The notes under the pieces were generated by a model. The model was not told where the DNA came from, made no database searches, and saw only the letters and a program-made list of their open reading frames with translations. From a virus: DNA of 21,449 bases. The DNA lies in IMG/VR virus record IMGVR_UViG_3300036770_004167, positions 1-21,449 of that record, one strand, 5' to 3'. Positions 3,137-18,247 of this stretch are shown one piece after another. The first letter of the stretch is position 1. Each line of letters opens with the position of its first letter. The position numbers were made by a program, and so were the translations under genes.

Positions 3137-3146
3137 AGACAATACA

Positions 3147-4727: not shown

Positions 4728-5330
4728 ATGCTGAAGAACTCCGACATCGCGAAGGCCCTGGGCGTCACGCCGCAGCGCGTCATCGCGTTGAAGCGGCGAG
4801 GCATGCCGGACGGCCCGGACATCGAGACGATTCTCCGCTGGCGGGAGGAGCGAATAAAGACGCACGGCTCGGGAGCGGGTACGGCGCCGAAGGTCGATGC
4901 GGCTCGGCCCGAGACGATCGCGGGCGGCTCCCTGGAGGAGCGCATCGAGAGGCACAAGCTGCGGGTCGACGAGGCCGAGCGCGTGTGGCAGGCGTCGATG
5001 CTCAACGGCGACAGCAACTCGAGCAAGTTCCAGTCGGCCTACAACCAGTCGCTTAAGACCCTGGTCTCCCTCGAGAACGAGGTCTTCGACCGAAAGGTTA
5101 AGGCGGGCGAGTTCATCCGGCGGTCGGACGCGGAGCAGTCGATGCTCGCCCTGGCCAACGTGGTCATAACGCTCGCCGAGAAGCTGCCGATGGAGCAGGG
5201 GGACAAGTGCAACCCCGACCAGCCGGCGAGGGCGGTCAAGGCCCTCGAGGAATGGGTGCTCGCCTTCCGCCGCTCCGTGTCCGACTCGGCCTGCACGCTG
5301 GCGCTGGAGGAGGACGGCAAGGGTGATTGA
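4728..5330 (+). CDS. terminase small subunit (Nu1-like)
   Basis: A 200-residue protein. Residues about 3-40 form an HTH like lambda Nu1 (SDIAKALGVTPQRVIALKRRGMP, then DIETILRWREE), which recognises the packaging site. A helical, charged middle (residues about 68-150) and a C-terminal segment follow, suited to oligomerising and docking the large subunit. The gene is immediately followed, with an eight-base overlap, by the GpA-type large subunit, which supports the call. ATG 4728 has a GAGG only one base away, too close for a normal SD, and is better explained by leaderless initiation from the TATAAT box just upstream. Confidence 0.8.
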   Translation: MLKNSDIAKALGVTPQRVIALKRRGMPDGPDIETILRWREERIKTHGSGAGTAPKVDAARPETIAGGSLEERIERHKLRVDEAERVWQASMLNGDSNSSKFQSAYNQSLKTLVSLENEVFDRKVKAGEFIRRSDAEQSMLALANVVITLAEKLPMEQGDKCNPDQPARAVKALEEWVLAFRRSVSDSACTLALEEDGKGD

Positions 5331-7140
5331 CTCCCGGCTGCTCGAGGTCGCCGCCGCCGCCATCGTCCCGCGCACGACCGGCGACCCGCTCGACTGGTTC
5401 GAGGCGAACATCGAGTCGATTCCCGGCGCGCTGAAGGCCGGCCACTTCGACAGGCGCACCCTGCCCTGGGTATCGAAGGCGCTGCAGATCACGCTCGACC
5501 ACGAGACGCGGGTGCACGTCATGATGTGGGGGACGCAGCTCGGGAAGTCCTTCACGCTCTCCGCCGCATCGGCCTATCTGGCTGTCAACTACGGAGCCCC
5601 GATTCTGGTCCTGCAGGATGTCCAGAAAAACGCCGACGACTTCAACCTGTTGAGCCTCCGCCCTCTGCTCGCCAAGTGCAAGCCGGCGCGGGAGCTCATC
5701 ATCCCCGAGAACGAGAAGAGCGAGGTCATCCGCTTCCGCAACGACTCGGTCATCTGGGTCCTCTCGGCGAACAACGAGAACAACCTCCAGCGGCGCACGA
5801 TCCGCTACGTCATCGCGGACGAGGTCTGGGAGTACAAGCCGAACCGGGTCGACCAGGTGAAGAAGCGCGTCGACGCGTACCGCCACCTCGGGCGCTGCGT
5901 CTTCGCCTCGCAGGGCGGCGTGGTCGGCGACCAGATGGACTCGCTCTGGAACGGCACCGACCAGCGCGAGTGGCACTTCGCCTGCCCGGCCTGCGGGGAC
6001 GGACGGCTGCAGCCGTGGATGTGGGAACAGGTTCGCTTCCCGGAGGAGGCGAGGAAGGGCGGGGGCTGGGACAAGCTGGCGGTCTCGCAGGGCACGACGT
6101 ACGAGTGCGTCCACTGCAGGACGCGACTGCCTGACCGCGACAGCGTTCGCGCCGAGTGCAACGCCAAGGGGGACTTCGTGGCCATGGCCCCGCTGCAGGA
6201 GGCCGGGGTGATAGGGACGAGGGTGCCGGCGCTGGCGCACCTGTCCTGGGGCAAGCTTGGGGTCGAGATGCTCAAGGCGTCCGAGGCCTTCGAGCAATAC
6301 GGCGATGCCGAGGGCCGTAAGATTTTTAAGATGAAGCGGCTGGCGATGTCATGGTCGGAGGACGGCGGGTCGATGATCTCGGACTTCAAGGCGGCCGACT
6401 ACAAGATGGGCGAGGGGTTCGCGGACGTGGCCTGGCTCAACGCCGGCGGGCGGTTCGTCACCGTCGGCCCCAACGCCGAGACGAAGGACCTCATCCGCCT
6501 TCGCGTCATGTTCGTCGACAAGCAAAAGGACAGGTTCTACCTCGAGGTGCGGGATTTCTCGCGGGACGGACGGAGCCATCAGGTCCACGCCTGCGAGGCG
6601 CACGGCTGGCACGAGCTCGACCAGATCGCCGCCCGCTTTAACGTGCACCCCGCGATGATAGGTGTCGACTCGGGCTGGGACCACGCCGAGGTCTACAGGG
6701 AGACGGCGGCTAGGAACTGGAAGGCCATGAAGGGTTTCGGCCAGGACGACTTCGCAATCCCCGGCAACAAGCGCCGCTTCTATTCCGAGCCCGAGCGAAT
6801 CCTGATGCCAGGGGGCAAGCAGGCCCGGCTGGTCAAGTTCTCGAACCTCGCCTTCAAGGACATGCTCTACGGCATGAGGGTTCGAAAGCTCTTTACCTAC
6901 GCCTCGGACGCTCCGGCCGAGTACGGCGAGCACATGGACGCCGAGGTCCGGCTCAAGGACTCGCGGACAGGCAAGCCGATGTGGGTCCTTCCGCAGGGGA
7001 AGGAGAACCACTATTACGACTGCGCGGTCGGCAACCTGGTGCTCGCCGTGCGCTGGGGAGTCGGGGGCCGGGAGGTCGCGTCGCCCCAGCAGGCCGAGAC
7101 CGGCGGCGAGTCGGTGGGCAGTTTTCCCGCCGGCCAATAG
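5323..7140 (+). CDS. terminase large subunit, lambda GpA family
   Basis: A 605-residue packaging motor and nuclease. The ATPase half has Walker A GTQLGKS (70-76) and Walker B YVIADE (162-167). A zinc-ribbon-like pair, CPAC (221-224) and CVHC (262-265), follows. The RNase-H-like nuclease half shows VDSGWDHAEVY (448-458), with Asp449 and Asp453, and a final acidic site near YYDC (564-567). It cuts concatemers and pumps DNA into the prohead with the Nu1-like partner. The start is GTG 5323, overlapping the small subunit stop by eight bases. Length and motif spacing suit the GpA family (lambda A is about 640 residues). Confidence 0.95.
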   Translation: MIDSRLLEVAAAAIVPRTTGDPLDWFEANIESIPGALKAGHFDRRTLPWVSKALQITLDHETRVHVMMWGTQLGKSFTLSAASAYLAVNYGAPILVLQDVQKNADDFNLLSLRPLLAKCKPARELIIPENEKSEVIRFRNDSVIWVLSANNENNLQRRTIRYVIADEVWEYKPNRVDQVKKRVDAYRHLGRCVFASQGGVVGDQMDSLWNGTDQREWHFACPACGDGRLQPWMWEQVRFPEEARKGGGWDKLAVSQGTTYECVHCRTRLPDRDSVRAECNAKGDFVAMAPLQEAGVIGTRVPALAHLSWGKLGVEMLKASEAFEQYGDAEGRKIFKMKRLAMSWSEDGGSMISDFKAADYKMGEGFADVAWLNAGGRFVTVGPNAETKDLIRLRVMFVDKQKDRFYLEVRDFSRDGRSHQVHACEAHGWHELDQIAARFNVHPAMIGVDSGWDHAEVYRETAARNWKAMKGFGQDDFAIPGNKRRFYSEPERILMPGGKQARLVKFSNLAFKDMLYGMRVRKLFTYASDAPAEYGEHMDAEVRLKDSRTGKPMWVLPQGKENHYYDCAVGNLVLAVRWGVGGREVASPQQAETGGESVGSFPAGQ

Positions 7141-7143
7141 TGT
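7122..7143 (+). promoter_or_regulatory. TTTTCC upstream element, copy A
   Basis: TTTTCC at 7122-7127 lies 22 bases before ATG 7144, at the 3' end of the terminase gene. The flanking GGCA and the downstream CCAATAGTGTATG closely match copy B at 11569 (19 of 23 aligned bases). It may be a promoter or a translation signal. Confidence 0.45.
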
Positions 7144-7404
7144 ATGGCAAAAGGGCTGTTCACCGTAGGCTTCACCGTGCAGGATGTCCTCGACATCCAG
7201 GCCAAGGCCAAGGCCGACCTGAAGCGCGGCCAGACGATCTCGTCCTATTCCGTTGCCGGAGCCTCGTTCAGCAAGACGCAGACCGCCCCTGTGATGGAGA
7301 TTCTCGACGAGTGCCGGTACGCCCTGCAAGTCCTCGACCCCGCGCGCTTCGGCTCGCCGAGGAACATCATCCGCACCTCGTGGCGAAACTTCAATGGCTA
7401 CTAA
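7144..7404 (+). CDS. gpW-like head-tail joining protein
   Basis: An 86-residue protein between the GpA-type terminase and the lambda-type portal, the slot of lambda W. Residues about 12-70 show the gpW pattern: an initial helix (VQDVLDIQAKAKADL), G-Q-T-I followed by a strand (SSYSVAGASFSKTQ), and a second helix (PVMEILDECRYALQVLD). gpW closes the portal channel and gives the site for tail attachment. ATG 7144 follows the terminase stop by three bases; GTG 7177 is a shorter alternative if the nearby TTTTCC element is a promoter whose transcript begins after 7144. The family call rests on context and pattern rather than invariant residues. Confidence 0.6.
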   Translation: MAKGLFTVGFTVQDVLDIQAKAKADLKRGQTISSYSVAGASFSKTQTAPVMEILDECRYALQVLDPARFGSPRNIIRTSWRNFNGY

Positions 7405-8941
7405 GCGAACCTCGTCCCGCAAGTCATCCGCGACCGCCCCCGCGCGGCGCAAGCCCGGGAAGGCCCGGGCCGGCATCCCGGCCGGCGGCTCCCTGCGCCC
7501 TCGCGCCGGCCTGACCGCCCAGGAGTACTTCAACTCGGCGGGGGACGGCAACGACGTTCGCTCTGACCTCCGCCTTCCGCAGCCACGCGACTACAAGAAG
7601 GACCTCACGCCGACGGTGCGGAAGGACCTCGTGTCCAAGATGCGCCACGGCATGCGGAACAGCGGCGAGTTCCGCCAGATCGTGGGGGACTTCGTCAACT
7701 ACGGCGTCGGCTCGGGCATCACCCCGCAGTCGCACGCCGAGGACCCCGACGTGGCCAAGGAGCACACGGCCTACTTCATGGAGTGGGCGAAGCGCTGCGA
7801 CATCACGAACCGCTTCTCGTTCTGGGACGTGCAGCGCCTGAGCGAGCGTGGCCGCTCCACAGATGGGGACTATTTTGAGGCGGTCGTGCGGGACGAGCGA
7901 GGGGACATCAAGGTCCAGCTGATAGAGAGCCACCGGGTCGCGACGCCCTACGACGCGAAGGACCCCCGCTCGGTTGACGGCGTCAACTTCGACGCCTTCG
8001 GGCGTGTCGTCTCCTACTCCGTCCTGCTCGACGACGGAACCTACTTCCCTGTGCCGGCCTCGCAGATGCTGCACATTTTCGACCCCGAGTCCTGCAGCGG
8101 GACGCGCGGACTGCCAATGCTCCAGCACGCTTGGAATGGGACGCAGGACCTCATGGAGATTCTCGCGCTGGAAGCCCAGGCAGTCAAGGTGCATGCCGAC
8201 CAGGTTGCAGTCCTGAAGAAGGCCGGCGGCGAGTTCGGGGCCGAGCAGTCGGACGAGCTTCGGACCGGCCCCCAGCGGGACAGCGGGTTCCCCAGCGGGA
8301 AGGGCGGCAAGCTGATTTCCCTCGAGCCCGGCGAGGACCTCGACCTGAAGGCGAGCCAGCGTCCCAACAGCAACTTCGTTTCCTACGTCGAGTTCCTCAA
8401 GCGCGACATCGCGCAGGGCACGATTCCCTACGAGTTCGTCGACGACGCCTCGAAGCTGGGCGGCGTGTCGATGCGCCTCGTCGGCAGCAAGGCTGCCCGC
8501 GCCTTCTCCCGCGTGTCCGACATCCACATCGAGCGCGAGTGCAACCCCTGGTGGTTCATCGTCATCGGCGACGCCATCGAGCGCGGGCTCGTCCGCCGCG
8601 ATCCGAAATGGACCTCCGTCTCGTGGACCGCCCCCAAGCAGCTCACGATGGACGCCGGGCGCGAGGCCGGGAACGACCGCGAGGACATCGCCGCCGGCCT
8701 GCTCACCTTCACCGAGCACTTCCGCCGGCAGGGCTCGAACCTCGACGAGGAGGCCGAGCAGCTCGCCCGCGACTACGCAAGGTTCTACGCACTCGAGAAG
8801 CAGTACGGCCTGCCCGAGGGTCTGCTAACCGCCGGACTCCGAAAGGGTGTCGCCTTCATGCAGGAGCCCCTGGACGTCAACACCGCCCGGGTCGAGGCCG
8901 GCGCCGAATCCACCGAACAAGCCCCCGAACCCAACCCCTGA
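7394..8941 (+). CDS. portal protein, lambda GpB family
   Basis: A 515-residue protein that forms the dodecameric portal vertex through which DNA enters and leaves the head. After a basic, low-complexity N-terminus (residues 1-38), lambda-portal features appear: RKDLVSKMRHGMRNSGEFRQ followed by a strand ending GVGSGITPQ (about 76-112), the RSTDGDYFEAVV segment (about 155-168), and LIESHRV. The long alpha region and the acidic C-terminal tail also fit. ATG 7394 overlaps the gpW-like gene by eleven bases. Length is close to lambda B (533 residues). Confidence 0.9.
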   Translation: MATKRTSSRKSSATAPARRKPGKARAGIPAGGSLRPRAGLTAQEYFNSAGDGNDVRSDLRLPQPRDYKKDLTPTVRKDLVSKMRHGMRNSGEFRQIVGDFVNYGVGSGITPQSHAEDPDVAKEHTAYFMEWAKRCDITNRFSFWDVQRLSERGRSTDGDYFEAVVRDERGDIKVQLIESHRVATPYDAKDPRSVDGVNFDAFGRVVSYSVLLDDGTYFPVPASQMLHIFDPESCSGTRGLPMLQHAWNGTQDLMEILALEAQAVKVHADQVAVLKKAGGEFGAEQSDELRTGPQRDSGFPSGKGGKLISLEPGEDLDLKASQRPNSNFVSYVEFLKRDIAQGTIPYEFVDDASKLGGVSMRLVGSKAARAFSRVSDIHIERECNPWWFIVIGDAIERGLVRRDPKWTSVSWTAPKQLTMDAGREAGNDREDIAAGLLTFTEHFRRQGSNLDEEAEQLARDYARFYALEKQYGLPEGLLTAGLRKGVAFMQEPLDVNTARVEAGAESTEQAPEPNP

Positions 8942-8950
8942 CACCTTCCC

Positions 8951-9754
8951 ATGCGCTTCCTTCGCAACGCCCTAAGCGGCCGAGAGCCGCTCCTCCTCGA
9001 GCCCTCCCGGGCCGTCGACCACGCCCGCCAATGCGAGAAGGTCGGCTTCACCGACGCTATCGAGATGATTTTCGGCAAGGCGCCGCAGGCCTACGTCGAG
9101 GACGGCGTGGCTGTGATACCTGTCGCCGGCGTGATCGGCAAGGGTCTCTCGGCGTTTGACCGCATGACCGGCGGCTTCGACCTCGAGCAGCTCGCCCAGG
9201 ACATCGAGGCGGCCAAGTCTAACCCCGAGGTCAAGGCCGTTATCTTCAAGGTCAACTCCCCCGGCGGGACGGTGACTGGCGTCGAGGAAGCCGGGAACCT
9301 CATCGCCAGCCTCGGCAAGCCCACCTTCGCCTTCACGGACGGAGAGATGGCCAGCGCCGCATACTGGCTCGGCTCGCAGGCCGACCGCGTGGTCGTCACG
9401 CCCTCCTCGTCCGTCGGCTCCGTCGGCGTCTACTCGGTCTACTACGACTTCCGCGAGGCTCTCGAGTCCGAGGGCATCAAGGCCAAGGTCTTCTCCGCAG
9501 GCACCTACAAGGGCATGGGGATTTACGGAACCTCGCTAACGCCCGAGCAGGAGGCCTTCCTGCAGGCCGACGTCGTCGCGATCTGGGACGACTTCAAGGC
9601 CGCCGTCACCCGCAAGCGGTCGATGGTCAAGCCCGAGGACATGGAGGCCCAGGTCTTCTCCGGCAAGGTCGCCGCGCAGAAGGGCCTCGCCACCGGACTC
9701 GTCAACTCCTTCTCCGAGCTGCTCTCCGCCGTCAAGCAGGCGGTCGCCGCCTGA
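8951..9754 (+). CDS. S49 family head maturation protease (lambda GpC-like)
   Basis: A 267-residue serine protease of the SppA/SohB fold. Visible parts are the oxyanion-hole segment NSPGG (102-106), the nucleophile Ser135 in GEMASAAYWLGS, and the general-base Lys187 in AGTYKGMG. The strand GSVGVYSVYYD (156-166) is typical of the family. It should cleave scaffold and portal during prohead maturation. Lambda C carries the scaffold Nu3 at its own 3' end; here the protease ends soon after the catalytic domain, and the scaffold-like sequence lies in the next gene. The leader before ATG 8951 is C-rich with no SD. Confidence 0.9.
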   Translation: MRFLRNALSGREPLLLEPSRAVDHARQCEKVGFTDAIEMIFGKAPQAYVEDGVAVIPVAGVIGKGLSAFDRMTGGFDLEQLAQDIEAAKSNPEVKAVIFKVNSPGGTVTGVEEAGNLIASLGKPTFAFTDGEMASAAYWLGSQADRVVVTPSSSVGSVGVYSVYYDFREALESEGIKAKVFSAGTYKGMGIYGTSLTPEQEAFLQADVVAIWDDFKAAVTRKRSMVKPEDMEAQVFSGKVAAQKGLATGLVNSFSELLSAVKQAVAA

Positions 9755-10623
9755 TGCCCCGCGTCGTCTCCGACATCGACGGCACCGTGCTCGAGGACGG
9801 CCAGCCTGTGCAGGCCGTGGTCGACTACATCAAGGCGAACTCCGAGGAGGTCGTCTTCCTTACCGCCCGCCCCGAGTCGGAACGCGGCAGGACGGAGGCG
9901 GACCTCGGGCGCGTGGGCATCGAGTACGAGCGCCTGATAATGGCGCCCGACGACCTGTCGATGCCTGTCGCAGAGTTCAAGGCCGAGGAGGTCAAGAAGA
10001 TGCTCGAGGACGACATGCGGGTCGACGAGTTCATCGACGACAACGCCGACAACCGCCGCGCGGTCGAGGCCCTGGGCGTAAAGGTCACGGACCCCAAGCA
10101 GATCGGCGAGCCCGGCGACGATTCCGCCTCCGCTTGGGCCGGCGCGTTTTCCGCCCCGCTCATCTTTAGAAACATGGAACCCAACCTCGCGAATCTCCAG
10201 CAGACCCCCGAGCAGCTCGCCGCCGACCTCGCGTCCAAGGCCGCCGCCCTCTCCGCCGAGTCCGCCGCCAAGGACGCCGAACTGACCGCCGTCCGCCAGT
10301 CCCTCGCCGACGCCACCGCCGCCCACGAGGCCGCGCTGGCCGCCGTCACCGCCGAGCTCGAGACCGTCAAGGCCCAGCTCGCCGACGCCCTCTCCAAGGC
10401 CGCCTCGCTCGAGGAAGCCAAGGTCGACGCCGCCGACGAGGCCGCGAAGCTCGCCTCCCAGATGGGCATCGCCCCGCTGGCCGCGACCCCCGCCGCCGAG
10501 CCCGAGGCCATCAAGCCCGAGAACATCCTCGCGAAGTACGAGGCCCTCTCCGGCGACGAGCGCCAGGCCTTCTACCGCGCGAACAAGCGCGCCATCTTCG
10601 CCGCCCGAAACAAGGCCGACTGA
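9754..10623 (+). CDS. HAD-phosphatase-like domain fused to scaffold-like coiled coil
   Basis: A 289-residue two-part protein in the scaffold position. Residues 1-118 look like a HAD hydrolase: DIDGTV with Asp7 and Asp9 (motif I), FLTAR with Thr37 (motif II), a possible motif III Lys near 76-82, and EFIDDNADN (92-100) as the acidic motif IV. T4 polynucleotide kinase 3'-phosphatase is the nearest comparison I can suggest. Residues about 142-289 are Ala/Glu-rich coiled coil ending in a basic C-terminus (FYRANKRAIFAARNKAD), typical of scaffolds. It starts in a TGATG overlap with the protease. An internal ATG at 10174, with its own upstream element, may release the scaffold alone. Activity is not proven. 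Confidence 0.75.
   Translation: MPRVVSDIDGTVLEDGQPVQAVVDYIKANSEEVVFLTARPESERGRTEADLGRVGIEYERLIMAPDDLSMPVAEFKAEEVKKMLEDDMRVDEFIDDNADNRRAVEALGVKVTDPKQIGEPGDDSASAWAGAFSAPLIFRNMEPNLANLQQTPEQLAADLASKAAALSAESAAKDAELTAVRQSLADATAAHEAALAAVTAELETVKAQLADALSKAASLEEAKVDAADEAAKLASQMGIAPLAATPAAEPEAIKPENILAKYEALSGDERQAFYRANKRAIFAARNKAD
10147..10173 (+). promoter_or_regulatory. TTTTCC upstream element, copy E (intragenic)
   Basis: TTTTCC at 10147-10152 lies 27 bases before the internal ATG 10174. The 25 bases 10146-10170 match 13381-13405 (copy C) at 21 positions, although this copy sits inside a coding region. That argues for a conserved signal driving the nested gene. Confidence 0.55.
10174..10623 (+). CDS. 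nested scaffold protein (internal start)
   Basis: A proposed 149-residue product starting at ATG 10174, in frame with and inside the HAD-scaffold gene. It would contain only the scaffold part: LQQTPEQLAADLASKAAAL and following heptad-like Ala/Glu/Lys repeats to about residue 95, then a Pro/Ala linker and a basic helical C-terminus that could contact the capsid protein. Lambda makes Nu3 in the same way, from an internal start within C. Support comes from the HAD/scaffold boundary at this Met and from the upstream element at 10146-10170. Whether the long form is also made, or only the short form assembles, cannot be seen. Confidence 0.5.
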   Translation: MEPNLANLQQTPEQLAADLASKAAALSAESAAKDAELTAVRQSLADATAAHEAALAAVTAELETVKAQLADALSKAASLEEAKVDAADEAAKLASQMGIAPLAATPAAEPEAIKPENILAKYEALSGDERQAFYRANKRAIFAARNKAD

Positions 10624-10657
10624 CCCCTTTCCCTAACCCACCCTCTAACCTCCCATC

Positions 10658-11512
10658 ATGTCCAACACCATCGACACCGCTCTGATCGTGGACTCCGTCA
10701 CGGAAGCCACGCAGACCAAGCTCGCGAACCGCCTCGCCGCCCTCAACCTCTTCTCGACCGACTTCTCGTCCGACGTGAAGCGCGCCGGGGACGTCGTCCA
10801 GGTCGCCCTCGCCACCGCCGGCTCCACCACCCAGGTCAACCCCACCAGCTTCAACAGCATCGGCGGGTCCACCCTCGACAACGCCGCCGTCACCCTCGAG
10901 CACATCTACCAGCCCTTCGGCCTGGCCTACGCCGACATCAAGAACGGCATCCGCCTCGAGCGCCTCATCCAAGTCAACGTCGACGCCTTTGCCGACAAGA
11001 TCTGGGAGAAGGTCACCACCCACGTCACCGTCGCCAACTACGGCGCCGCCGTCTCCACTGGCGCTGACTCCACGTTCACCGTCGGCTCCGCTGGCGTCAA
11101 GGCCCTCTGGGCTGGCGTGAGCAAGTCCGGCCGCAAGGGCCTCGTGGCCAACGCCGGGATCTACTCCAACTTCATCCCGACCTCGACGACCAGCCTGCCC
11201 CTGCAGGCCGGCGCCTACGGCTTCGACAACGGCGTCCACTACGCGACCTCCTTCTCCGGCGAGACCAAGCTGGCCGCTTTCGCCTGCTCGCCCGAGGCCG
11301 TCGCGATCGCCAGCTCGGCGCCCGCCCTCGACGGCATCGCCGGCGACCTCCTCGTCAACGAGGCCATCGCCCTTCCCAACCTCGGCATGACCGCCTTCTG
11401 GACCGTCTGGTCCGACAAGTCGACCCGCAACATCATCGGCGCGGTCGAGGTCATGTTCGGCTCGGCGCCCGGCATCAAGACCGGCACGATGGCGCTCGCC
11501 CTCAACCCCTGA
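10658..11512 (+). CDS. major capsid protein, HK97-fold type
   Basis: A 284-residue protein directly after the scaffold and before the connector genes, the usual capsid place. The N-terminal helix (TEATQTKLANRLAAL), the GDVVQVALAT strand, the EHIYQPFGLAYADIKNG segment and the central helix RLIQVNVDAFADKIWEKVT match the layout of small HK97-fold coats. The C-terminal half is beta-rich (TAFWTVWSDKSTRNIIGAVEVMFG). It should form the icosahedral shell. No protease cleavage site is evident, so processing by the S49 enzyme probably concerns the scaffold. ATG 10658 follows a C-rich leader without SD, and a strong terminator follows the stop. Confidence 0.75.
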   Translation: MSNTIDTALIVDSVTEATQTKLANRLAALNLFSTDFSSDVKRAGDVVQVALATAGSTTQVNPTSFNSIGGSTLDNAAVTLEHIYQPFGLAYADIKNGIRLERLIQVNVDAFADKIWEKVTTHVTVANYGAAVSTGADSTFTVGSAGVKALWAGVSKSGRKGLVANAGIYSNFIPTSTTSLPLQAGAYGFDNGVHYATSFSGETKLAAFACSPEAVAIASSAPALDGIAGDLLVNEAIALPNLGMTAFWTVWSDKSTRNIIGAVEVMFGSAPGIKTGTMALALNP

Positions 11513-11533
11513 GGTTGAGTCGAGTCCCGAACG

Positions 11534-11562
11534 CAGCCCCCCTCACCGGGGGCTGTTTTTTT
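11534..11562 (+). terminator. intrinsic terminator after the capsid gene
   Basis: CAGCCCCC 11534-11541 pairs perfectly with GGGGGCTG 11548-11555 (loop of six), followed by seven T at 11556-11562. It ends the head operon 22 bases after the capsid stop. Copy B of the TTTTCC element begins seven bases later, so transcription probably restarts here. Confidence 0.9.
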
Positions 11563-11568
11563 GGCAAG

Positions 11569-11590
11569 TTTTCCAACCCGCCAAAAGTGT
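11569..11590 (+). promoter_or_regulatory. TTTTCC upstream element, copy B
   Basis: TTTTCC 11569-11574 is followed by CCGCCAAAAGTGTATG and lies 22 bases before ATG 11591, immediately after the capsid terminator. A new initiation signal is expected at this point, which favours a promoter reading. TATGCT at 11590-11595 would be its -10. Confidence 0.5.
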
Positions 11591-11980
11591 ATGCTGTACT
11601 CGGAGATGCTGGAGGATGCGAAAGCCATCGTCGGCGACATGGCCGACTTGGCGCAGACTTGGACGGCCCCGGGCGGAACCCCCTCTTGGAAGGTGCTCAT
11701 GGACGTCCCGACGGTCGGGCAGGAGCTCGTGGCCGGCGGATTCAAGGAGACCCTATCCCACGTCGTGATGATCGTCGCCACGGACGCAGCCTGGACGACC
11801 TCCACCGGGGCGGCCTGCGCCGCGTCCCTGTCCGCCGGCCAGCCGGTCACCCAGCTCGCCATCGGCAAGCGCCTTGTGGCCGTGCCCCAGGGCAGCAAGG
11901 TCTACCGCATCATGGACTCGACCTACCTTCCCGGCTCGGCTTGGGTCGCGCTCCGCGTGCAGGCGGACGACCAGTTCTGA
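11591..11980 (+). CDS. head-tail connector protein (lambda FII position)
   Basis: A 129-residue protein following the capsid gene and preceding the tail-completion gene, the slot of lambda FII or equivalent head-closure proteins. It begins with a helix (residues 1-22), then a beta-rich domain (SWKVLMDVPTVGQE, TLSHVVMIVATDAA, RLVAVPQGSKVYRIM, WVALRVQADDQF) as expected for the small beta-barrel connector. No single diagnostic residue is visible. ATG 11591 is used. ATG 11606, five codons in, is an alternative if TATGCT at 11590 is a -10 box. It joins the next gene in a TGATG overlap. Confidence 0.55.
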   Translation: MLYSEMLEDAKAIVGDMADLAQTWTAPGGTPSWKVLMDVPTVGQELVAGGFKETLSHVVMIVATDAAWTTSTGAACAASLSAGQPVTQLAIGKRLVAVPQGSKVYRIMDSTYLPGSAWVALRVQADDQF

Positions 11981-12936
11981 TGGCGGTCCGGCCCGGAGGC
12001 GTCTCGATCGCGGTCATTCCCACGACCGCCCAGCGGGTCGCGTCCTCGCTCGGCGGGATGAGGTCCTACCTTAACGCCTTCACGCGGGACATGCTGTTCC
12101 AGGAGGCCGCGCTGTGCGCGAAGGCCTTCATGATGTTCTCCCCTCCGTTCCCGAAGGGCGGGGGCTCCTCGTTCACCAAGGAGGCCCGCAGGGCTGGCGA
12201 GAACGCCGTCAACGCCGACATCCGCTCCTTCGTCGTGCCGGCCACGTCGAACGCGATGGCCATCGCCTCAGACCCCTCGGCCGAGTTCCGCACGTTCCTC
12301 GAGTGGAAGGCGAAGCCGCTCGCCGGGAACATCGGCTCGATTCTGCAGAAGATCCACGCGGACCAGGACGCCGAGCGCGCCTTCCGCAAGGCCCGCAACC
12401 TCGCGGGCAAGTACCCTTTCGAGGAGCGGAACCTGAAGGACAAGTCGCAGCTGCGCGAGGTCCACGACGGTCTCCGCAAGCGCTACCGTGGCCGAATCCG
12501 CAAGATGGGCGGGCCTCCGCAGACCCTGCGCGCGCGGCCGTTCACCCTGGACGAGAAGGCCATCAAGGCCTACGTCAAGGAACGGAAGGCCAAGGTGGGC
12601 ATGCTCAACTCCGGCTGGTGGTCAGTTATAACCAAGGTTCCCGCGATTCGCATCCGTGGGGCCGACCGCTTCGCCGGCAGGACCGGCATCCCGCAGTGGG
12701 TCAAGCGCCACTCGGGGGCCCTGGGCGTCTTCCACAACGGCGTCGGCGCCGTGACCACGACCCAGTCCTACGTCGAGATCATCAACCGAATCGGCGACAT
12801 CAACGGCATTGCGACCGAGGTCCGCTCGCGGGAGAAGGTCATCGGCTACCGAAAGAGCCAGATCGCGCGCCGCCCTTGGCAGCGATTCATCGACCAGGCT
12901 TGCCTTGCGGCGAGCAGGGGACAGCGTCCAACTTAA
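11980..12936 (+). CDS. probable tail-completion or minor tail protein (lambda Z position)
   Basis: A 318-residue protein that I recognise only by context. It begins with a helical segment about 15-48 containing FTRDMLFQEAALCAKAFM. A basic, Arg/Lys-rich middle follows (about 130-165: RAFRKARNLAGKYPFEERNLKD, RKRYRGRIRK). The last third contains GWWSVITKVPAIR and RTGIPQWVKRHSG, reminiscent of tail-completion proteins with a conserved Trp/Pro segment. Position between the connector and the gpU-like gene fits lambda Z. The start is ATG 11980 in a TGATG overlap; the frame is open further upstream only because it overlaps the connector gene. Confidence 0.5.
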   Translation: MAVRPGGVSIAVIPTTAQRVASSLGGMRSYLNAFTRDMLFQEAALCAKAFMMFSPPFPKGGGSSFTKEARRAGENAVNADIRSFVVPATSNAMAIASDPSAEFRTFLEWKAKPLAGNIGSILQKIHADQDAERAFRKARNLAGKYPFEERNLKDKSQLREVHDGLRKRYRGRIRKMGGPPQTLRARPFTLDEKAIKAYVKERKAKVGMLNSGWWSVITKVPAIRIRGADRFAGRTGIPQWVKRHSGALGVFHNGVGAVTTTQSYVEIINRIGDINGIATEVRSREKVIGYRKSQIARRPWQRFIDQACLAASRGQRPT

Positions 12937-12937
12937 C

Positions 12938-13381
12938 ATGGGAACCAAATCAATTAGGGAAATCGTCGAGGCCGCGTGCGTCTCGCACCTGTCGGCCCAG
13001 GGCATCACAGGCTACCAAATCCTGCCCGGCATGAATCTCGCCATTATCGACCCGCCCTTCGTGGTCGCGAGCGTCGAGGCCGTGTCGAACATCCCCGACA
13101 TTCCAGAGGGTCTGGGAAACTACCTCGTCACCCTGACCGTGCAGATCATGACACCCACCGGGGACCCCGGCACCGAGGCGACCGTCCTCGCCGCCCACCG
13201 TGCGGTCTCCGAGAAGGTGGCCAGCGCCTTCGACGACCTCGCCGGACTGCAGGCAGTATTCACCTCGCAGGGGGACGCCTCCCTGTACGACATCACCTTC
13301 GGAACCATCTCGGACGGCCGGGCGGAGAGGTTCCTCGGGACCACGGTCAACTACGAGGTCGAGTGCGTCCTCGCCGGGTAG
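12938..13381 (+). CDS. tail terminator-like protein (lambda U position)
   Basis: A 147-residue protein starting at ATG 12938, one base after the previous stop. The pattern of N-terminal helix, hydrophobic strands (YLVTLTVQIMTP), a long helix (TVLAAHRAVSEKVASAFDDL) and a C-terminal strand with Cys (TVNYEVECVLAG) is the alpha/beta layout of gpU and other tail terminators, which cap the tail tube and join it to the head. No single signature residue is diagnostic, so the call relies on size, predicted fold and order. Its stop overlaps the TTTTCC element that precedes the next gene. Confidence 0.6.
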   Translation: MGTKSIREIVEAACVSHLSAQGITGYQILPGMNLAIIDPPFVVASVEAVSNIPDIPEGLGNYLVTLTVQIMTPTGDPGTEATVLAAHRAVSEKVASAFDDLAGLQAVFTSQGDASLYDITFGTISDGRAERFLGTTVNYEVECVLAG

Positions 13382-13410
13382 TTTTCCGTCCGGCTCATTT
13401 GTAGACCACC
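13381..13410 (+). promoter_or_regulatory. TTTTCC upstream element, copy C
   Basis: TTTTCC 13382-13387 lies 29 bases before ATG 13411. Bases 13381-13405 match the intragenic copy E (10146-10170) at 21 of 25 positions, including GCTCAT and TAGA. The TAGA block ends five bases before the ATG, so a transcript from here would be leaderless or nearly so. Confidence 0.55.
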
Positions 13411-13764
13411 ATGCCCTCTCCCACTATCAAAGGTACGGCCTTCGCCCGGGGCATCACCGGGACGGTGACCGGGATTCGCCTCCAGTCCTACTCGATCTCC
13501 GTCGCTCCCGCCAATACCGAGGAAATCCCCGACCAGGACGGCTACGTCGAGGGCGTCATCATGTACGACACCCGGAAGACCTTCACCTTCGAGGGTTTCG
13601 TCCCTACCCCCGAGGCCGTCAACCTGAGCTACGGCACGGACCTCTCCTTCACCGGGCAGGCCGGCGAGTCCTTCTCCGGCTTCCTCGTGAGCTACGAGGA
13701 GCGCGGACAGGTCAAGGGCCAGACGGTCGTCTCCGGCACCGCGACCGAGTACGAGGGCATCTAA
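13411..13764 (+). CDS. small tail protein, possible tail tube (lambda V position)
   Basis: A 117-residue, almost entirely beta protein (TVTGIRLQSYSISVAP, FTFEGFVPTPEAVNLSYG, SFSGFLVSYEERGQVKGQTVVSGTATEYEG). It lies between the tail-terminator-like and chaperone-like genes, where tube proteins are coded. It is set apart in its own unit: a TTTTCC element upstream and a strong terminator downstream, as expected for a product needed in high amount. It is shorter than lambda V (246 residues) and lacks an Ig-like domain, so a small minor tail protein remains possible. Confidence 0.55.
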   Translation: MPSPTIKGTAFARGITGTVTGIRLQSYSISVAPANTEEIPDQDGYVEGVIMYDTRKTFTFEGFVPTPEAVNLSYGTDLSFTGQAGESFSGFLVSYEERGQVKGQTVVSGTATEYEGI

Positions 13765-13794
13765 CCCGCTTCGGGGCCGGTAAACTGGCTCCAG

Positions 13795-13835
13795 CCCCTC
13801 GCCGGCTTGTGTGCTCCGGCGGGGGGTTTTCTTTT
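13795..13835 (+). terminator. intrinsic terminator after the small tail protein gene
   Basis: CCCCTCGCCGG 13795-13805 pairs with CCGGCGGGGGG 13816-13826 (11 pairs, one a G-T), loop of ten, followed by TTTTCTTTT at 13827-13835. It lies about 30 bases after the stop at 13764. Confidence 0.88.
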
Positions 13836-13953
13836 GGCTGGCTGGCGGACTTGACTGTTGCCTGACTCCCCTTGCCTTGGGAATGTCGATTCCCCTGCAG
13901 AGATTCCATTCTGCGGGGGGTATCCCACCCAATCCGACACAACACCCGCACAA
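13836..13953 (+). promoter_or_regulatory. leader of chaperone gene with overlapping hairpins
   Basis: Two stems share bases. GGGAAT 13879-13884 pairs with ATTCCC 13889-13894 (loop GTCG). CCCC 13892-13895 plus GCAGA 13897-13901 pairs with TCTGC 13910-13914 plus GGGG 13915-13918 (one bulged T). Because CCC 13892-13894 is in both, only one full stem can form. No T-run follows. They sit 35 bases before ATG 13954 and could tune expression of the chaperone and tape measure. Confidence 0.45.
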
Positions 13954-14520
13954 ATGGACAAAAGGTTTCTGAGGGCATTTTTGACCCCTTCCGAGACGGT
14001 CATCGAGGGATACCGTCTTTACCCCTGGTGCCTCAAGCACCGTATCTGGCTGGACGGCATCGAGTCCCCGCTGATGCGCCCCGAGGAGCCTCTGAGCGTG
14101 GCCGACCTCATCCTGGCCCTGCAGATCTGCTCCGAGCGCCCAGTCGGCCGGCTGAGCCTTCGGGAGCGCTGGTTGGCCTACCGACTGCACGCCGACCGGG
14201 AGAGGTTCAAGCGGGCCTGCGCCGCCTTCGTCGACCACATGGACACGGCCCAGCGCTGGCCCAAGTTCCTCGAGAGGAAGCGCACCGGGGAGCCCGGGGA
14301 CGGCGGGGTGCCTTGGCAGCTCGGGGTAGTGACAAACCTCGTGAAGAATGGGGTCAGCCTGGAGGACGCCCTGCAGATGCCGGAGCCCAAGGCCATATGG
14401 CTTTCGTCCGTCTTCGCCATTCAGGCAGGCGCCAAGCTGGACATTCTCTCGACCGAGCTCGAGGAGCTCATCGACTCGGGGGCGTTTGACGAACCGCCAC
14501 AGGTACAGGAGAACAAATGA
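13954..14520 (+). CDS. probable tail assembly chaperone
   Basis: A 188-residue helical protein between the small tail protein and the tape measure, where siphophages code tail assembly chaperones (lambda G/GT). The C-terminal segment NGVSLEDALQMPEPKAIWLSS followed by an acidic tail resembles chaperones that end in a DALxM-P helix. The start is ATG 13954 (CACAAATGGAC, no SD); upstream in-frame codons run through the leader hairpins and are rejected. It overlaps the tape measure in an ATGA. No second frame is open past the stop and no slippery heptamer was noticed, so a programmed frameshift product like lambda GT is not expected. Confidence 0.6.
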   Translation: MDKRFLRAFLTPSETVIEGYRLYPWCLKHRIWLDGIESPLMRPEEPLSVADLILALQICSERPVGRLSLRERWLAYRLHADRERFKRACAAFVDHMDTAQRWPKFLERKRTGEPGDGGVPWQLGVVTNLVKNGVSLEDALQMPEPKAIWLSSVFAIQAGAKLDILSTELEELIDSGAFDEPPQVQENK

Positions 14521-15764
14521 GCCAGTCCCTCAATTTCCGCATCACAGCAAATGACCAAGCGTCGAGGGTCGTGACCGAGGTTCAGAAGAAGGTCCTCGAC
14601 TTCGGGAAGGACATCGGCCGCTCAATCACCGCAGTCGTCGGGCCTATGGCAGTTGTAGGCCTAGCCTTCTCGAAGGTGCAGCAGAAGATGGCCGACATGA
14701 AGCAGGCAGCCGATGACGCGTTTAAGTGGGGCGCCGGACTAACGCGTCAGGCCGCGAATCTAGGCCTTACGGTCGAGCAGTTACAGAAACTGCAACAGGT
14801 GGCGGACGCGACAGGCGTCCCGCTTGAGAAGGTGGCCGAGGCCTTCAAGGAGTCGCAGAGGGTCATCGAAGCCGCCAAGCGCGGCAACGCCGAAGCCATC
14901 GAGGGGCTAAACGCCCTCGGCATCTCGGCGCAAGACCTGGCTGACTTGACTCCAGAAAAGGTAATCGAGGCCATGGGCAAGGCCCTTGTGACCATCGAGG
15001 ACCCGACCAAGAAGGCCACCGCAGCCTTCGCCCTTTTCGGCGAGCAGGGAAAGAAGCTGGTCGACACTCTCGAGAGGCTTAGAAAGTTAACAGAGGTTCC
15101 GGTGATGCCTGGTCTGACTCCCGAGGAGGCCGAGTTCCTTCGCGATCAGGAGTTGGCAGAGGAGGGTGAGAAAAACAAAGAGCGACTCAGGCTTGCAAGG
15201 CAGTCGGCCGTTGAAAGGTTTTTGGAGACGGACGAAGGGAAGAAAATTGTTGAGCGTGAGCGCTCCAAGGAAAGACGTCAGGCTCCACTCGGGGCTGGTA
15301 TGCCTGGTGGCGGCGCCTTATCTGCCAGCGGGTCTCTAAGCGTCTCAACCCTAGCCCAAAGGAAAGAAATCCAAGACGAGGCTCTTCGCAGGCTAAAGAA
15401 AGGTCCGGAGGCCCCTCCCACACCCGAGGAAACCGCAGCCGGCGAAGGTCTGGTCACCCTCGGCGAGGAGCGCCAGGCCAAGCCCGAGAAGGTCGCCAAG
15501 CCGGCGAAGCCCGAGGAGCCTGTCCGCCCCGAGGCCGAGGCCGTCACCGTTTCCTCCCTTCGCCAGATCGGCGGCGCGCTGGCCGGCGAGGTCGTCGGCG
15601 GCGTGGACTACCAGCAGCTACAGGTCGACCTCCAGCGCGAGATGGTCCGCCTTCTCTCCGAGGTCTCGAACAACCTCAAGCCCGGCACCGACCCGACCAA
15701 GGGCTCCTTCGATAACGTCAACCCCGCAGCCGTGGGCCCCAACGCCAAGATCGGCTTCGCATAA
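14517..15764 (+). CDS. tape measure protein (short)
   Basis: A 415-residue protein with the usual opening (SLNFRITANDQASRVVTEVQ), a hydrophobic stretch (about 36-51, SITAVVGPMAVVGLAF), long helices, and the tape-measure segment LNALGISAQDLADLTPEKVIEAM...AALFGEQGKKLVDTL (about 131-186). A Pro/Ala/Glu-rich stretch (about 298-340) and a C-terminal helix follow. It sets tail length and is carried to the host membrane. Length is short compared with many siphophages, implying a tail of roughly 60 nm if about 1.5 angstrom per residue holds. ATG 14517 has a clear AGGAG SD, unusual here. DNA from about 14540 to 15400 is visibly AT-richer than its neighbours. Confidence 0.8.
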   Translation: MSQSLNFRITANDQASRVVTEVQKKVLDFGKDIGRSITAVVGPMAVVGLAFSKVQQKMADMKQAADDAFKWGAGLTRQAANLGLTVEQLQKLQQVADATGVPLEKVAEAFKESQRVIEAAKRGNAEAIEGLNALGISAQDLADLTPEKVIEAMGKALVTIEDPTKKATAAFALFGEQGKKLVDTLERLRKLTEVPVMPGLTPEEAEFLRDQELAEEGEKNKERLRLARQSAVERFLETDEGKKIVERERSKERRQAPLGAGMPGGGALSASGSLSVSTLAQRKEIQDEALRRLKKGPEAPPTPEETAAGEGLVTLGEERQAKPEKVAKPAKPEEPVRPEAEAVTVSSLRQIGGALAGEVVGGVDYQQLQVDLQREMVRLLSEVSNNLKPGTDPTKGSFDNVNPAAVGPNAKIGFA

Positions 15765-15773
15765 TTTCCAATC

Positions 15774-16496
15774 ATGCCACTAATCAAGAAAGGCGACCTC
15801 TCCCTGAAGCCGATTCCCGGCTGGGTAATCGACGAGGACGGCGAGGGACTCGTGACCTCCCGAGTTATTTTCAAGGGGCAGAAGTCCGCCGCCGGCTCGA
15901 AGCCTCGGCAGCTCGACCCTCACCCCTTCGACCCGACCCTGCTCTGCTACAAGTGCTCGACGCAGAGCGACGGCCAGACCGTCACGGTGACCGCCGAGTA
16001 CGTCGGCATCGCCTCTGGAACGACGACCGGCATCCGCTGGGGCTCCGACACCTCGTCGAGCGTGAACCCCATCCAGGCGCACCCGAACTTCAGCAAGGCG
16101 ACATGGTCTCCCAAGCCCTTGCGCGACTACGGCTGGGACGACGAGAAGGGGCTCTTCCCAGACGGCGACATCGAGGCCGGCACGGCTGGGCTCCTCGGCG
16201 TCCGCTCGTTCCTCGCCCCCGAGCAGACCGTCTCCGGCTTCTTCTACACCTCCGACAAGGAATGGCTGCAGAAGTGGCTGGACGGCGTGGCCTGCACGGT
16301 CGAGGCGCTGCCGGGAGACGAGGGCGCGGTCGTCACGAAGAACTTCAAGCCGGCCTCGGCGAACCACGACCGCAAGGCCTTGCTGGCCAGCGTCAGCTAC
16401 GAGCAGTACGCCCACGTCTACAAGGTCAACTTCACGGTCCGCATCGCTAGCGGGGGCTGGAACAAGCTTGTTTATAACCGAGCCCCGACCCAGTAA
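15774..16496 (+). CDS. tail-tip or baseplate protein of unknown family
   Basis: A 240-residue unrecognised protein, placed just after the tape measure where distal tail and tip proteins are coded. It is beta-rich (SRVIFKG, TVTVTAEYVGIA, VNFTVRIASGGWNKLVY) with aromatic turns (WSPKPLRDYGWDDEKGLFPDG, DKEWLQKWLDG). A C-x2-C pair is present (about 58-61, CYKC) with no obvious partner cysteines. No enzyme motif is seen. The start is ATG 15774 with no SD; it ends in a TAATG overlap with the next gene, forming a compact block of three co-translated genes. Confidence 0.55.
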   Translation: MPLIKKGDLSLKPIPGWVIDEDGEGLVTSRVIFKGQKSAAGSKPRQLDPHPFDPTLLCYKCSTQSDGQTVTVTAEYVGIASGTTTGIRWGSDTSSSVNPIQAHPNFSKATWSPKPLRDYGWDDEKGLFPDGDIEAGTAGLLGVRSFLAPEQTVSGFFYTSDKEWLQKWLDGVACTVEALPGDEGAVVTKNFKPASANHDRKALLASVSYEQYAHVYKVNFTVRIASGGWNKLVYNRAPTQ

Positions 16497-16975
16497 TGGC
16501 GCTCATCAACCCAGGCGTCGGGCTGGTTCACTCGGTGGGCCGGGACGGAATCGGCATCGAGATTCTGCCTGTCGGCGGAACCGGCTATCACCCCTTCTAC
16601 GTGCGGCTGGTCAAGATCGCTAGCGCCTGGCACTTCAAGGTTACTCCCGGCACGGTCAACAGCCAAGTCCCGACGCTGGACGGCACCCTGCTCGACGCTA
16701 ACCCCGCTCCCTCAAAGTCCATCGGATCGGCCTCCGGCTACGTCTACCTGGACATGACCTACACCGAGGGCTCGGGATTCCCCGACACCTTCACCGTCGA
16801 GTACGACACCGCAGTACCCGCAGACACCGACACAAAGGCCCACGTCGCGCTGGCCTACATCGACTTCTCGGCGGCCACCCCCAAGAAGACCGCGCAGTAC
16901 GTCTCGACCTCCCTGTGGGGCGAGAGGCTGAAGTGCGGCTCGAGCACCGCCGAGTACTACTTCTCCCGCGCCTAA
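16496..16975 (+). CDS. small beta-rich virion protein of unknown family
   Basis: A 159-residue unrecognised protein overlapping both neighbours by TAATG junctions. The sequence alternates short strands (GIGIEILPVGG, FYVRLVKIASAWHFKV, SGYVYLDMTYTEG, HVALAYIDFSA) and has a Pro/Ser/Thr-rich middle. The ending YYFSRA is aromatic. It looks like a structural jelly-roll or tip component. There is no signal peptide and no catalytic motif. Context in the tail-tip block is the only guide to role. Confidence 0.5.
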   Translation: MALINPGVGLVHSVGRDGIGIEILPVGGTGYHPFYVRLVKIASAWHFKVTPGTVNSQVPTLDGTLLDANPAPSKSIGSASGYVYLDMTYTEGSGFPDTFTVEYDTAVPADTDTKAHVALAYIDFSAATPKKTAQYVSTSLWGERLKCGSSTAEYYFSRA

Positions 16976-18210
16976 TGGGCACGATTGTCTCCGGCAACCT
17001 GTTCGCAAAGACCTTCGCCAACGGAGGCCGCAGGACGGCGGGAGCCTTCACCTATCTGTCGCAGGCGCCCATCACCTCGCAGGTGACCGACTCGGTGGAC
17101 ATCCCCTCGCTTGCCCCACAGCATCGGACCATCGACGGCAACTCCCGGCACCTGTTCAAGAACTACCCCGGCGAGGTCGTCCGCAAGATAAGGACGGACA
17201 GGCCCGACCGACCCAGCGAGGCCGTGCCGGCGGAAAACATCGGCACGCTGGCGCTGCGCCTCACCTCCTCGAGCACCTGGAGGTACGCGAACTTCACGAC
17301 CCCGGACAGCGACTACGAATCCGTCCTGCTTTCCCTGGACACGCTCGACTCGGTGGTCCAGCGGTCGGACTATTGGACAGGCGGGGACGACGAGCACTAC
17401 GACGCGGTGACGCTCTACCAGTCAATCTACAGCCCGACTTACCCTGGCGACCCGACGCCCTACGAGCTGAGGGAAACCCAGATTTCCCGGGACGCGGACG
17501 CCACCGGGCCGAGCACAGTCTCCTTCTCCTCGTCGCGTGTTTCCGTGCCTGTGACGACCGGCATCGCCTGGGCCTACAACGGCACGACCGGCCCGGGCGG
17601 GGGTGACTACACGGACTACACGATCTACGCCGTCTTCACGAGCAAGGCCGACTACCTCGACCTAGTGGGAAGCGGAGTCGACTACACCGAGCAGTACGAG
17701 ATACTCGCCCGCCACGACACCCAGTCGGCGCAGGGCCTGGCAGCCTTCCCGGCCTTCAAGCCTCAGACCGCCGACTACCCCAGCTGGGGCTCCCCGCAAA
17801 CCGAGGACACGATACCCTTCCCGAAGCCGACCCCTGTCGCGCCCTACACCTTCACCCCGGACGCGACCTGGAAGGGCGCCGGGATGGTCTTCAAGTCCGA
17901 GGTCTCCGCGCAGTTCGTCTACACCAGCCCGGCCTCCTGCGACCGCCGCTGGTTCGATGGGACGGAAATCGAGGTCAAGGTGAAGTACAAGAAGGCCGAG
18001 GTCACGCGCGGCACCTTCGGCTTTGTGCAGGGGGTCGGGGGATTCCCCGCCGTCATCGGCTCGTGGGTCGACGCCGGCGAGGAGACGAAGACCCTCACCC
18101 TTCCGGCCTATTCATCCTCCAAGCAGACCGTCGGCGCCTCGTGGGACCTCCCCGAGATCACAGGCTACATCGTGGCCGTCGACGACATCATAATCGAGTC
18201 TGTCACCTAG
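16975..18210 (+). CDS. large beta-rich virion protein of unknown family
   Basis: A 411-residue unrecognised protein beginning at ATG 16975 in a TAATG overlap. It is rich in Ser, Thr, Tyr and Asp with many predicted strands and a Gly-rich turn (NGTTGPGGGDYTDYTIYAVF, about 203-222). A Pro-rich segment (TIPFPKPTPVAPYTFTP, about 298-314) divides it from a C-terminal beta domain ending YIVAVDDIIIESV, which resembles a carbohydrate-binding-module-like sandwich. A baseplate or host-contact role is inferred from place and composition. A short gap with a TTTTCC element follows. Confidence 0.5.
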   Translation: MGTIVSGNLFAKTFANGGRRTAGAFTYLSQAPITSQVTDSVDIPSLAPQHRTIDGNSRHLFKNYPGEVVRKIRTDRPDRPSEAVPAENIGTLALRLTSSSTWRYANFTTPDSDYESVLLSLDTLDSVVQRSDYWTGGDDEHYDAVTLYQSIYSPTYPGDPTPYELRETQISRDADATGPSTVSFSSSRVSVPVTTGIAWAYNGTTGPGGGDYTDYTIYAVFTSKADYLDLVGSGVDYTEQYEILARHDTQSAQGLAAFPAFKPQTADYPSWGSPQTEDTIPFPKPTPVAPYTFTPDATWKGAGMVFKSEVSAQFVYTSPASCDRRWFDGTEIEVKVKYKKAEVTRGTFGFVQGVGGFPAVIGSWVDAGEETKTLTLPAYSSSKQTVGASWDLPEITGYIVAVDDIIIESVT

Positions 18211-18213
18211 GCA

Positions 18214-18247
18214 TTTTCCTAAACCCCATAAGTAGCGACAACCCTCG
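18214..18247 (+). promoter_or_regulatory. TTTTCC upstream element, copy D
   Basis: TTTTCC 18214-18219, preceded by GGCA, starts four bases after the previous stop and 34 bases before ATG 18248. The following CCCCATAAGTAG resembles the second block of copies A-C. It is the most divergent of the five copies. Confidence 0.35.

Follow-up and report, generated by a model that had tools for sequence, protein, structure and literature searches.

Does a short T-rich word that recurs ahead of start codons in the late genes of a phage constitute a genuine signal, and if so, of which kind? The window analysed here, a stretch of 21,449 nt from the record of an uncultured phage, carries the hexamer TTTTCC on its plus strand at 7122, 10147, 11569, 13382 and 18214 and nowhere else, with an ATG 22, 27, 22, 29 and 34 nt further on, respectively, as originally observed. 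Copy A (7122–7144) is composed of TTTTCC (7122–7127), six spacer nucleotides, CCAATAGTGT (7134–7143) and A7144, which is the first base of the ATG of an 86-aa gene in the terL/portal interval; it overlaps the terL stop codon TAG (7138–7140). Copy B (11569–11591) has the same layout (TTTTCC 11569–11574, N6, CCAAAAGTGT 11581–11590) and likewise ends with the first base of an ATG, A11591, where a connector-like gene without family match begins soon after the terminator of the major capsid protein (MCP) gene. Copy C (13382–13403; TTTTCC 13382–13387, N5, GCTCATTTGT 13393–13402, A13403) precedes the ATG of a tail-tube-like gene at 13411, and copy D (18214–18234; TTTTCC 18214–18219, N4, CCCCATAAGT 18224–18233, A18234), the weakest copy, precedes that of a 349-aa tail protein at 18248, one gene ahead of g26. 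Copy E (10147–10168; TTTTCC 10147–10152, N5, GCTCATCTTT 10158–10167, A10168) lies inside an ORF (9754–10623), 6 nt upstream of an internal in-frame ATG at 10174 from which the scaffold part would be read. All of these genes are on the plus strand.

The hexamer alone is not enriched (nine occurrences on both strands of the window, 5.9 expected). In all five plus-strand copies, however, a second block with the consensus [GC]C[CT][CA]A follows 4–6 nt downstream, which is absent from all four minus-strand occurrences. The combined pattern TTTTCC-N4-6-[CG]C[CT][CA]A thus occurs five times on the plus and never on the minus strand, with about 0.04 (0.043) matches expected per strand. As this pattern was composed after inspection of the copies, a leave-one-out test was added, in which the second blocks of the omitted copies ranked in the top 0.06–1.9% of all positions, D being the weakest; scores were +9 to +14 for the five copies and -4 to -9 for the minus-strand hexamers. 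The chance that four of five copies fall 22–34 nt ahead of called gene starts is ~5e-7, or 1.5e-4 if a loose zone of 5–60 nt is allowed; the fifth copy (10147) precedes an internal methionine codon and not a called start. Placement and second block of the copies are non-random. Copies E and C (10146–10170 versus 13381–13405) are identical at 21 of 25 positions, as claimed before, and A and B reach the same value. Pairs of 25-mers with equal identity also exist elsewhere in this GC-rich window.

The surrounding transcription units had been described correctly. Copy B follows straight after the strong intrinsic terminator that closes the major capsid gene (11533–11556, plus strand; -19.1 kcal/mol), leaving ~35 nt up to the ATG, and an equivalent arrangement is present in every clade of relatives. 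Copy C opens a single-gene unit that is closed by a further intrinsic terminator (13793–13828, plus strand; -25.5 kcal/mol). None of the five copies contains a standard -35/-10 pair, in agreement with the original prediction.

To place the copies in context, we compared ~80 related phages. Equivalent junctions recur in them, namely terL/small head gene, MCP terminator/connector, tail tube, tail-fibre module and nested scaffold start, and other lineages carry a differing element there. One clade uses TTGCC-N4-5-CCGCAG with four to five copies per genome, another CAAC-N7-CTAAARRTA, and two further clades (2 and 3) have TTTGACA ~13 nt upstream of the start codon. The junction of copy A holds TTGCC-N5-CCGCAG or CAAC-N7-CTAAA elements in relatives, that of copy B has each clade's own element, and possession of an element at the copy C junction is shared by clade 1, the L055 group and clade 3. 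For copy D, relatives place their own element one gene later, ahead of g26. A parallel to copy E is seen in L004, where TTTGACA (8030) lies within the protease-scaffold ORF ahead of an internal scaffold ATG. Between window and clade 1, junctions match exactly in three of five cases. The blocks agree at 14.1 of 17 positions among copies within one phage and at 7.0 of 17 for the same junction across lineages, both values being slightly optimistic since the blocks were aligned on their anchors; for L021 and L053, the third site in this comparison is the TMP copy rather than the tube copy. The exact element of the window returned only two low-GC chance matches in other contigs, and this version is so far confined to one species. 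In relatives, it is the junctions that are kept and not the sequence TTTTCC; as the element is lineage-specific, a search of relatives for TTTTCC would have dismissed the signal wrongly. The proposal that the starts of A and B lie further in is not borne out: orthologues start at the same ATG, abutting their lineage's own element.

Longer clade 1 records carry four exact copies of their element, all on the late-gene coding strand, at 4 to ~45 nt from the ATG. Off-site matches are absent from the 18–38 kb records of this clade except for one in G002. The latter record looks chimeric. In clades 2 and 3, TTTGACA is found 290 times on the plus strand (29 expected) and never on the minus strand (34 expected). 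We considered the minus-strand avoidance as proof of action at the DNA level, but clade 1, where TTTGACA is not in use, has only one minus-strand occurrence versus 13 expected; since this clade is also near-devoid of it, the lack must partly reflect codon usage, which weakens the argument. A Chthoniobacter MAG showed no N13 peak over 396 kb, so that the element does not belong to the signals of host genes. Searching genome contigs for the MCP returned three MAG contigs only and no clear integrated prophage.

What does the element do? At sites where no start codon stands in the usual position, a pyrimidine-purine step is present at position 19/20 or 20/21 in 45 of 54 cases, compared to ~13 per offset elsewhere. 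Its persistence without a start codon resembles a transcription start. Moreover, the Verrucomicrobia phage isolate P8625 carries TTGACA-N17-T(5)-N7-ATG at six gene starts on the plus strand and none on the minus strand, including those of the gene ahead of portal and of the gene that follows the capsid-region terminator. This layout reads as that of a textbook leaderless promoter of the sigma-70 type, although the genome paper of P8625 does not mention promoters (PMC4642752). The fixed pyrimidine-purine step together with these canonical promoters at equivalent junctions favours a late promoter giving rise to leaderless or short-leader mRNAs. Since relatives have another short signal at the same junctions, the two-part signal probably serves as a switch that every phage lineage has rewritten, and its most likely role is to mark a transcription start. 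We consider it fairly likely that the five copies represent the form which a late promoter has taken in this lineage, where it starts sub-operons within the structural gene cluster. In such a promoter, the 5' block would be located ~20 nt and the 3' block ~10 nt upstream of the conserved pyrimidine-A step, the two being spaced by one helical turn. The conserved A would be the first transcribed base; in copies A and B it is the A of the ATG, which would yield leaderless mRNAs, and in copies C, D and E it lies 6–14 nt ahead of the ATG. The original idea of a phage-specific late promoter with leaderless mRNA is hence the best of the explanations considered and gains from the relatives, even though the promoter role is deduced and TTTTCC itself is not conserved. 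Judged by sequence, the element shows what late promoters generally show, a repeated strand-specific motif at the starts of late transcription units, and also, as T7-type promoters do, a repeated, strand-specific core of ~20 bp that ends at the predicted start. Against a promoter count its geometry, which matches no characterised bacterial sigma factor and is GC-rich where a -10 box would be, and the lack of a detected RNA polymerase gene, so that an additional factor must be invoked.

The blocks could instead function at the mRNA level: as a signal for translation initiation, as the site of a phage RNA-binding regulator or as a processing site generating new 5' ends at the start codon. Copies are always on the coding strand close to start codons, and most of them reside within a late operon, where read-through is conceivable. 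In addition, Shine-Dalgarno-like motifs are rare in the window (four of 27 genes) and in the host-type MAG, so that other initiation signals must exist. However, a distance to the ATG varying from 4 to ~45 nt is unlike a ribosome-binding signal, the pyrimidine-purine step persists without a start codon, most genes lack the element and must nevertheless be translated, inspection by eye revealed no hairpin common to the lineages, and P8625 has promoters at equivalent junctions, all of which makes an RNA element rather unlikely. We regard as less probable still a DNA operator, at which a regulator bound to the two blocks would control read-through or a weak promoter close by, either blocking or releasing it, without transcription starting at the element itself. 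The spacing by one helical turn, the sequence differences between lineages, the proximity of a phage HTH gene and a GTATC..ATAC dyad over the P8625 promoters would suit it, but not the fixed position of the pyrimidine-purine step, nor the ~35 nt between terminator and ATG at copy B, which leave no room for a separate promoter.

Poorly conserved host sigma-70 promoters are very improbable: P8625 does have TTGACA-N17-TATTGG ahead of equivalent genes, and terS of the window has GTGTATAAT 8 nt upstream of its ATG, but the window copies lack a -35/-10 pair, and in clades 2 and 3 the AT-rich hexamer is absent 17 nt past TTTGACA, from where transcription would start inside the gene. Finally, a purely accidental similarity of T-rich words close to starts could appeal to the unremarkable frequency of TTTTCC and to the equally identical 25-mer pairs; contradicted by the second block, the placement, the orthologous junctions and the 290:0 strand bias in relatives, it is hardly credible. 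Other motif readings were also dropped. A hairpin xGG..TTTTCCx' can be drawn at each window copy, whereas the relatives' copies have no such pairing, and a sigma-28-like GTTT-N8-GCCAA has the wrong spacing and is missing in relatives. Direct reading of the window copies and of each clade's consensus revealed neither a sigma-54 GG-N10-GC at -24/-12 nor an AR9-type AACA-(6N)-T[A/G].

Returning to the late promoter, its sequence changes as a set between lineages while the junctions stay, and the recogniser should therefore be phage-encoded and co-evolving; probably it is a DNA-binding factor directing the host RNA polymerase. A first candidate is the HTH protein encoded at 3948–4718 (plus strand), the last gene ahead of terS, which may be the cognate reader. 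Other clades have remote orthologues or counterparts at the same place whose recognition helices differ. Its AlphaFold model (mean pLDDT 58.8) was too poor for a fold search. A single-subunit RNA polymerase (PF00940) was not detected in nine family records of 29–38 kb, which may be incomplete (T7 control, E=1e-109), and no large unassigned ORF of the multisubunit kind was evident in G003. As a tentative generalization, somewhat less likely to be right than wrong, small (~30-kb) verrucophages may employ an HTH or sigma-like phage factor to redirect host RNA polymerase to a minimal promoter with its core at -20 to -5 and its start at the A of AUG, the factor-promoter pair being re-invented per lineage (TTTTCC, TTGCC/CCGCAG, CAAC/CTAAA, TTTGACA).

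Known systems offer partial parallels. P8625 shares the equivalent late junctions, the restriction to the plus strand and a predicted start at the A of the ATG, but has a -35 TTGACA, a 17-nt spacer and a TA-rich -10, whereas in the window and among its nearer relatives there are only lineage-specific blocks at ~-20/-10. The late promoter of the jumbo phage AR9, AACA-(6N)-T[A/G] with the last base as start, is likewise short, two-part, close to the start, terminated by T-purine and present in many copies, some within ORFs; AR9, however, has its own multisubunit RNA polymerases and leaders of 26–491 nt (PMC5312081). The verrucophages studied here measure ~30 kb, lack a detectable single-subunit polymerase and have predicted leaders of zero to a few tens of nucleotides. 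T7-type promoters have their core within ~20 bp upstream of the start, and their sequence co-diverges with the reader (T7/T3/SP6). Both features are mirrored here, but without a PF00940 polymerase in the nine records. T4 late promoters consist of TATAAATA, read with the sigma-like gp55. A short phage-specific core used by host polymerase plus a phage factor would be common to both, but the window lacks TATAAATA, and its core is further upstream and contains GC.

Within the literature searched, gene expression of Verrucomicrobiota phages appears unstudied. A family that keeps its late-operon junctions while the signals turn over in concert lets promoter-factor co-evolution be studied in a natural experiment, much as in T7/T3/SP6 but with no phage polymerase detected. 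If the element is a promoter, its geometry would be unusual for host RNA polymerase, and leaderless translation would be routine, extending to the start of a scaffold gene that lies within another ORF. TTTGACA-N13-start, given its strand bias, also provides a simple marker with which starts and transcription units can be annotated in many uncultured phages. In lambda, the scaffold gene Nu3 is nested in C and expressed from an in-frame internal start. The scaffold is apparently produced likewise here (window, 9754–10623; L004, 7434–8555), with the difference that a separate copy of the late element precedes the internal start.

The five plus-strand copies of TTTTCC in the window (A at 7122, E at 10147, B at 11569, C at 13382 and D at 18214) were recovered at the positions and distances to an ATG given in the original prediction. 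The word TTTTCC alone is not over-represented in the window. Four of the five copies stand at called gene starts (P ~5e-7; 1.5e-4 if the zone is drawn loosely) and the fifth stands ahead of an in-frame Met inside an ORF. All are followed after 4-6 nt by a second block, [GC]C[CT][CA]A[AT].., which is missing from all four TTTTCC copies of the minus strand. This combination of start placement and second block is not due to chance. On the plus strand, the copies read TTTTCC-CGCCGG-CCAATAGTGT-A(TG) (A), TTTTCC-AACCCG-CCAAAAGTGT-A(TG) (B), TTTTCC-GTCCG-GCTCATTTGT-A (C), TTTTCC-GCCCC-GCTCATCTTT-A (E) and TTTTCC-TAAA-CCCCATAAGT-A (D). In the alignment, TA forms the last two bases of all five, and in copies A and B the final A opens the start codon.

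The window, a linear IMG/VR record (21,449 bases, 65.7% GC), encodes, in order, a DnaB-like helicase, a helix-turn-helix (HTH) protein, terS, terL, an 86-aa protein, portal, an S49-type protease, a HAD/kinase-like plus scaffold ORF, the major capsid protein (MCP), connector-like proteins, tail tube, tape measure (TMP), and tail and fibre proteins; scaffold, connector and tube are named by position, not by family match. L001, 100% identical in terL, portal and MCP, looks like a second contig of the same species, and among phage isolates Verrucomicrobia phage P8625 is closest in terL (22% identity). Relatives comprised ~80 viral contigs reached via MCP alignment, and the MCP also matched two MAG contigs, one from Verrucomicrobiota and one from Chthoniobacter.

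A literal search of the relatives revealed that the TTTTCC pattern is absent from the equivalent junctions, where a different repeated element replaces it. In the window as well as in the other lineages, an element stands ahead of three genes: the small one preceding portal, the connector that follows the MCP terminator, and the tube, whose junction could be resolved in all but clade 2. The nested scaffold start carries one in the window (copy E) and clade 3. Copy D lies one gene ahead of g26, and the corresponding copy in clade 1 and the L055 group lies before g26 itself. The clade 1 element (loci L021-L053) is GTTGCC-N4-5-CCGCAG-NNNY-A, exemplified by TTGCCTAGACCCGCAGATTTATG ahead of the gene that separates terL from portal, TTGCCCGACTCCGCAGATTTATG downstream of the MCP terminator and TTGCCCGTTCCCGCAGTTTCAAAGACTATG ahead of the tube, with additional copies before TMP and g26. 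Longer clade 1 records hold four exact copies, to which a near-consensus copy ahead of g26 adds a fifth, and each lies on the late coding strand. Controls with the reversed pattern gave none except one in a single record, and the 38-kb record G002 has one extra off-site match. Beyond ~29 kb (late-gene orientation), the reading frames of this record (loci L085/L086) are poor and not phage-like, and it looks chimeric. In the L055 group, CTAAARRTA stands ahead of the corresponding four genes (small head gene, connector, tube and g26), and direct reading of the sites places CAAC exactly 7 nt upstream at three of them. Clades 2 and 3 use TTTGACA, found 290 times on the plus strand and never on the minus strand of 42 loci (657 kb; 29 and 34 expected from dinucleotides), codon usage accounting for part of the antisense absence; it lies most often 13 nt from the start codon, and 101 sites remained after redundancy removal.

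In-frame fusion of scaffold behind another domain recurs in the window (9754-10623), L002 (2519-3310) and L004 (7434-8555), the leading domain being HAD/kinase-like in the former two and a protease in L004. The internal start is conserved or likely in these ORFs; in the single protease-plus-scaffold ORF of L004, TTTGACA at 8030 lies just 5' of an in-frame ATG. Lambda C/Nu3 likewise has scaffold in frame behind another domain with an internal start.

Within one phage, copies agree at 14.1 of 17 block positions, as compared to 7.0 for the same junction in different lineages and 6.7 for different junctions in different lineages. Position is inherited and sequence is common to the copies of one phage, as expected of a shared trans-acting reader co-evolving with its sites, which argues for a phage-encoded reader. 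A Chthoniobacter MAG has no TTTGACA peak 13 nt before starts, and hence the element does not belong to the general signals of the host. Neither the window nor the other phage records searched, of which several span 29-38 kb, yielded a single-subunit RNA polymerase (T7 control positive), and the annotation of the complete 32.9-kb P8625 genome lists none. Directly 5' of terS, the window (3948-4718, +), clade 1, L005 and the L055 group each encode an HTH protein; these proteins are divergent and remotely similar. The counterpart in clade 3 is weaker and lies 5' of the terminase region, its HTH matching sigma-70 region 4 and HTH_3 weakly, under curated cut-offs. The recognition helices differ between lineages (SKQAVAWRSRRI in the window, SKQAIHKRAKLM in clade 1, TRDNICHMVRRK in L005, GRDSISKYVKAQ in the L055 group, TRALISHYVVGI in clade 3), a correlation that makes this protein a lead as candidate reader; the certainty of its structure model was too low for use.

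Taken together, the element is real and repeated, differs by lineage and sits at the starts of late genes. From sequence, it is most likely a late promoter yielding leaderless or short-leader transcripts, and it would act in the manner of a phage-specific late promoter, as the original prediction suggested; TTTTCC itself is not kept in relatives. Several observations count for a promoter rather than an RNA element: the distance to the ATG varies in clade 1 from 4 to ~45 nt; of 54 clade 2/3 sites where position 20 holds no start codon, 45 still have a pyrimidine-purine step at 19/20 or 20/21, as compared to ~13 per offset elsewhere; a strong MCP terminator precedes copy B and another strong terminator ends the unit begun by copy C; and P8625 has promoter layouts at equivalent junctions. 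Against it count a geometry that fits no known sigma and the part that codon usage plays in the absence of antisense TTTGACA. Judged on testable features only, the element falls outside the sigma-70, sigma-54, T4-late, T7-type and AR9-type classes.

In P8625, TTGACA/TTGCCA/TTGCAA-N17-T(5)-N7-ATG occurs at six gene starts on the plus strand (TTG[AC][CA]A at 5412, 9620, 10736, 15558, 17505 and 22406) and at none on the minus strand. Among the six are the genes that precede portal and follow the capsid-region terminator. Most layouts are overlapped by a GTATC..ATAC dyad, and their transcripts are predicted to be leaderless; the genome paper (PMC4642752) does not mention these six layouts. The TTG at 9620, annotated as the gp13 start, probably belongs to the -35 element TTGCCA in a promoter (9620-9656), the ATG ~36 nt downstream being the more likely true start.

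Elsewhere in the window, g20 begins ~125 nt after the tube terminator, and the gap (13830-13953) contains hairpins and no recognisable element copy. At 4640-4728, a terminator-like hairpin that shuffled sequences show to be weak (z -0.2) is followed by GTGTATAAT, which ends 8 nt before the terS ATG and may be a sigma-70-like -10 starting the late operon. The gap that separates g06 from the helicase gene (3098-3200) holds short tandem CAGTTCACACTGC copies together with C-rich/G-rich inverted repeats.
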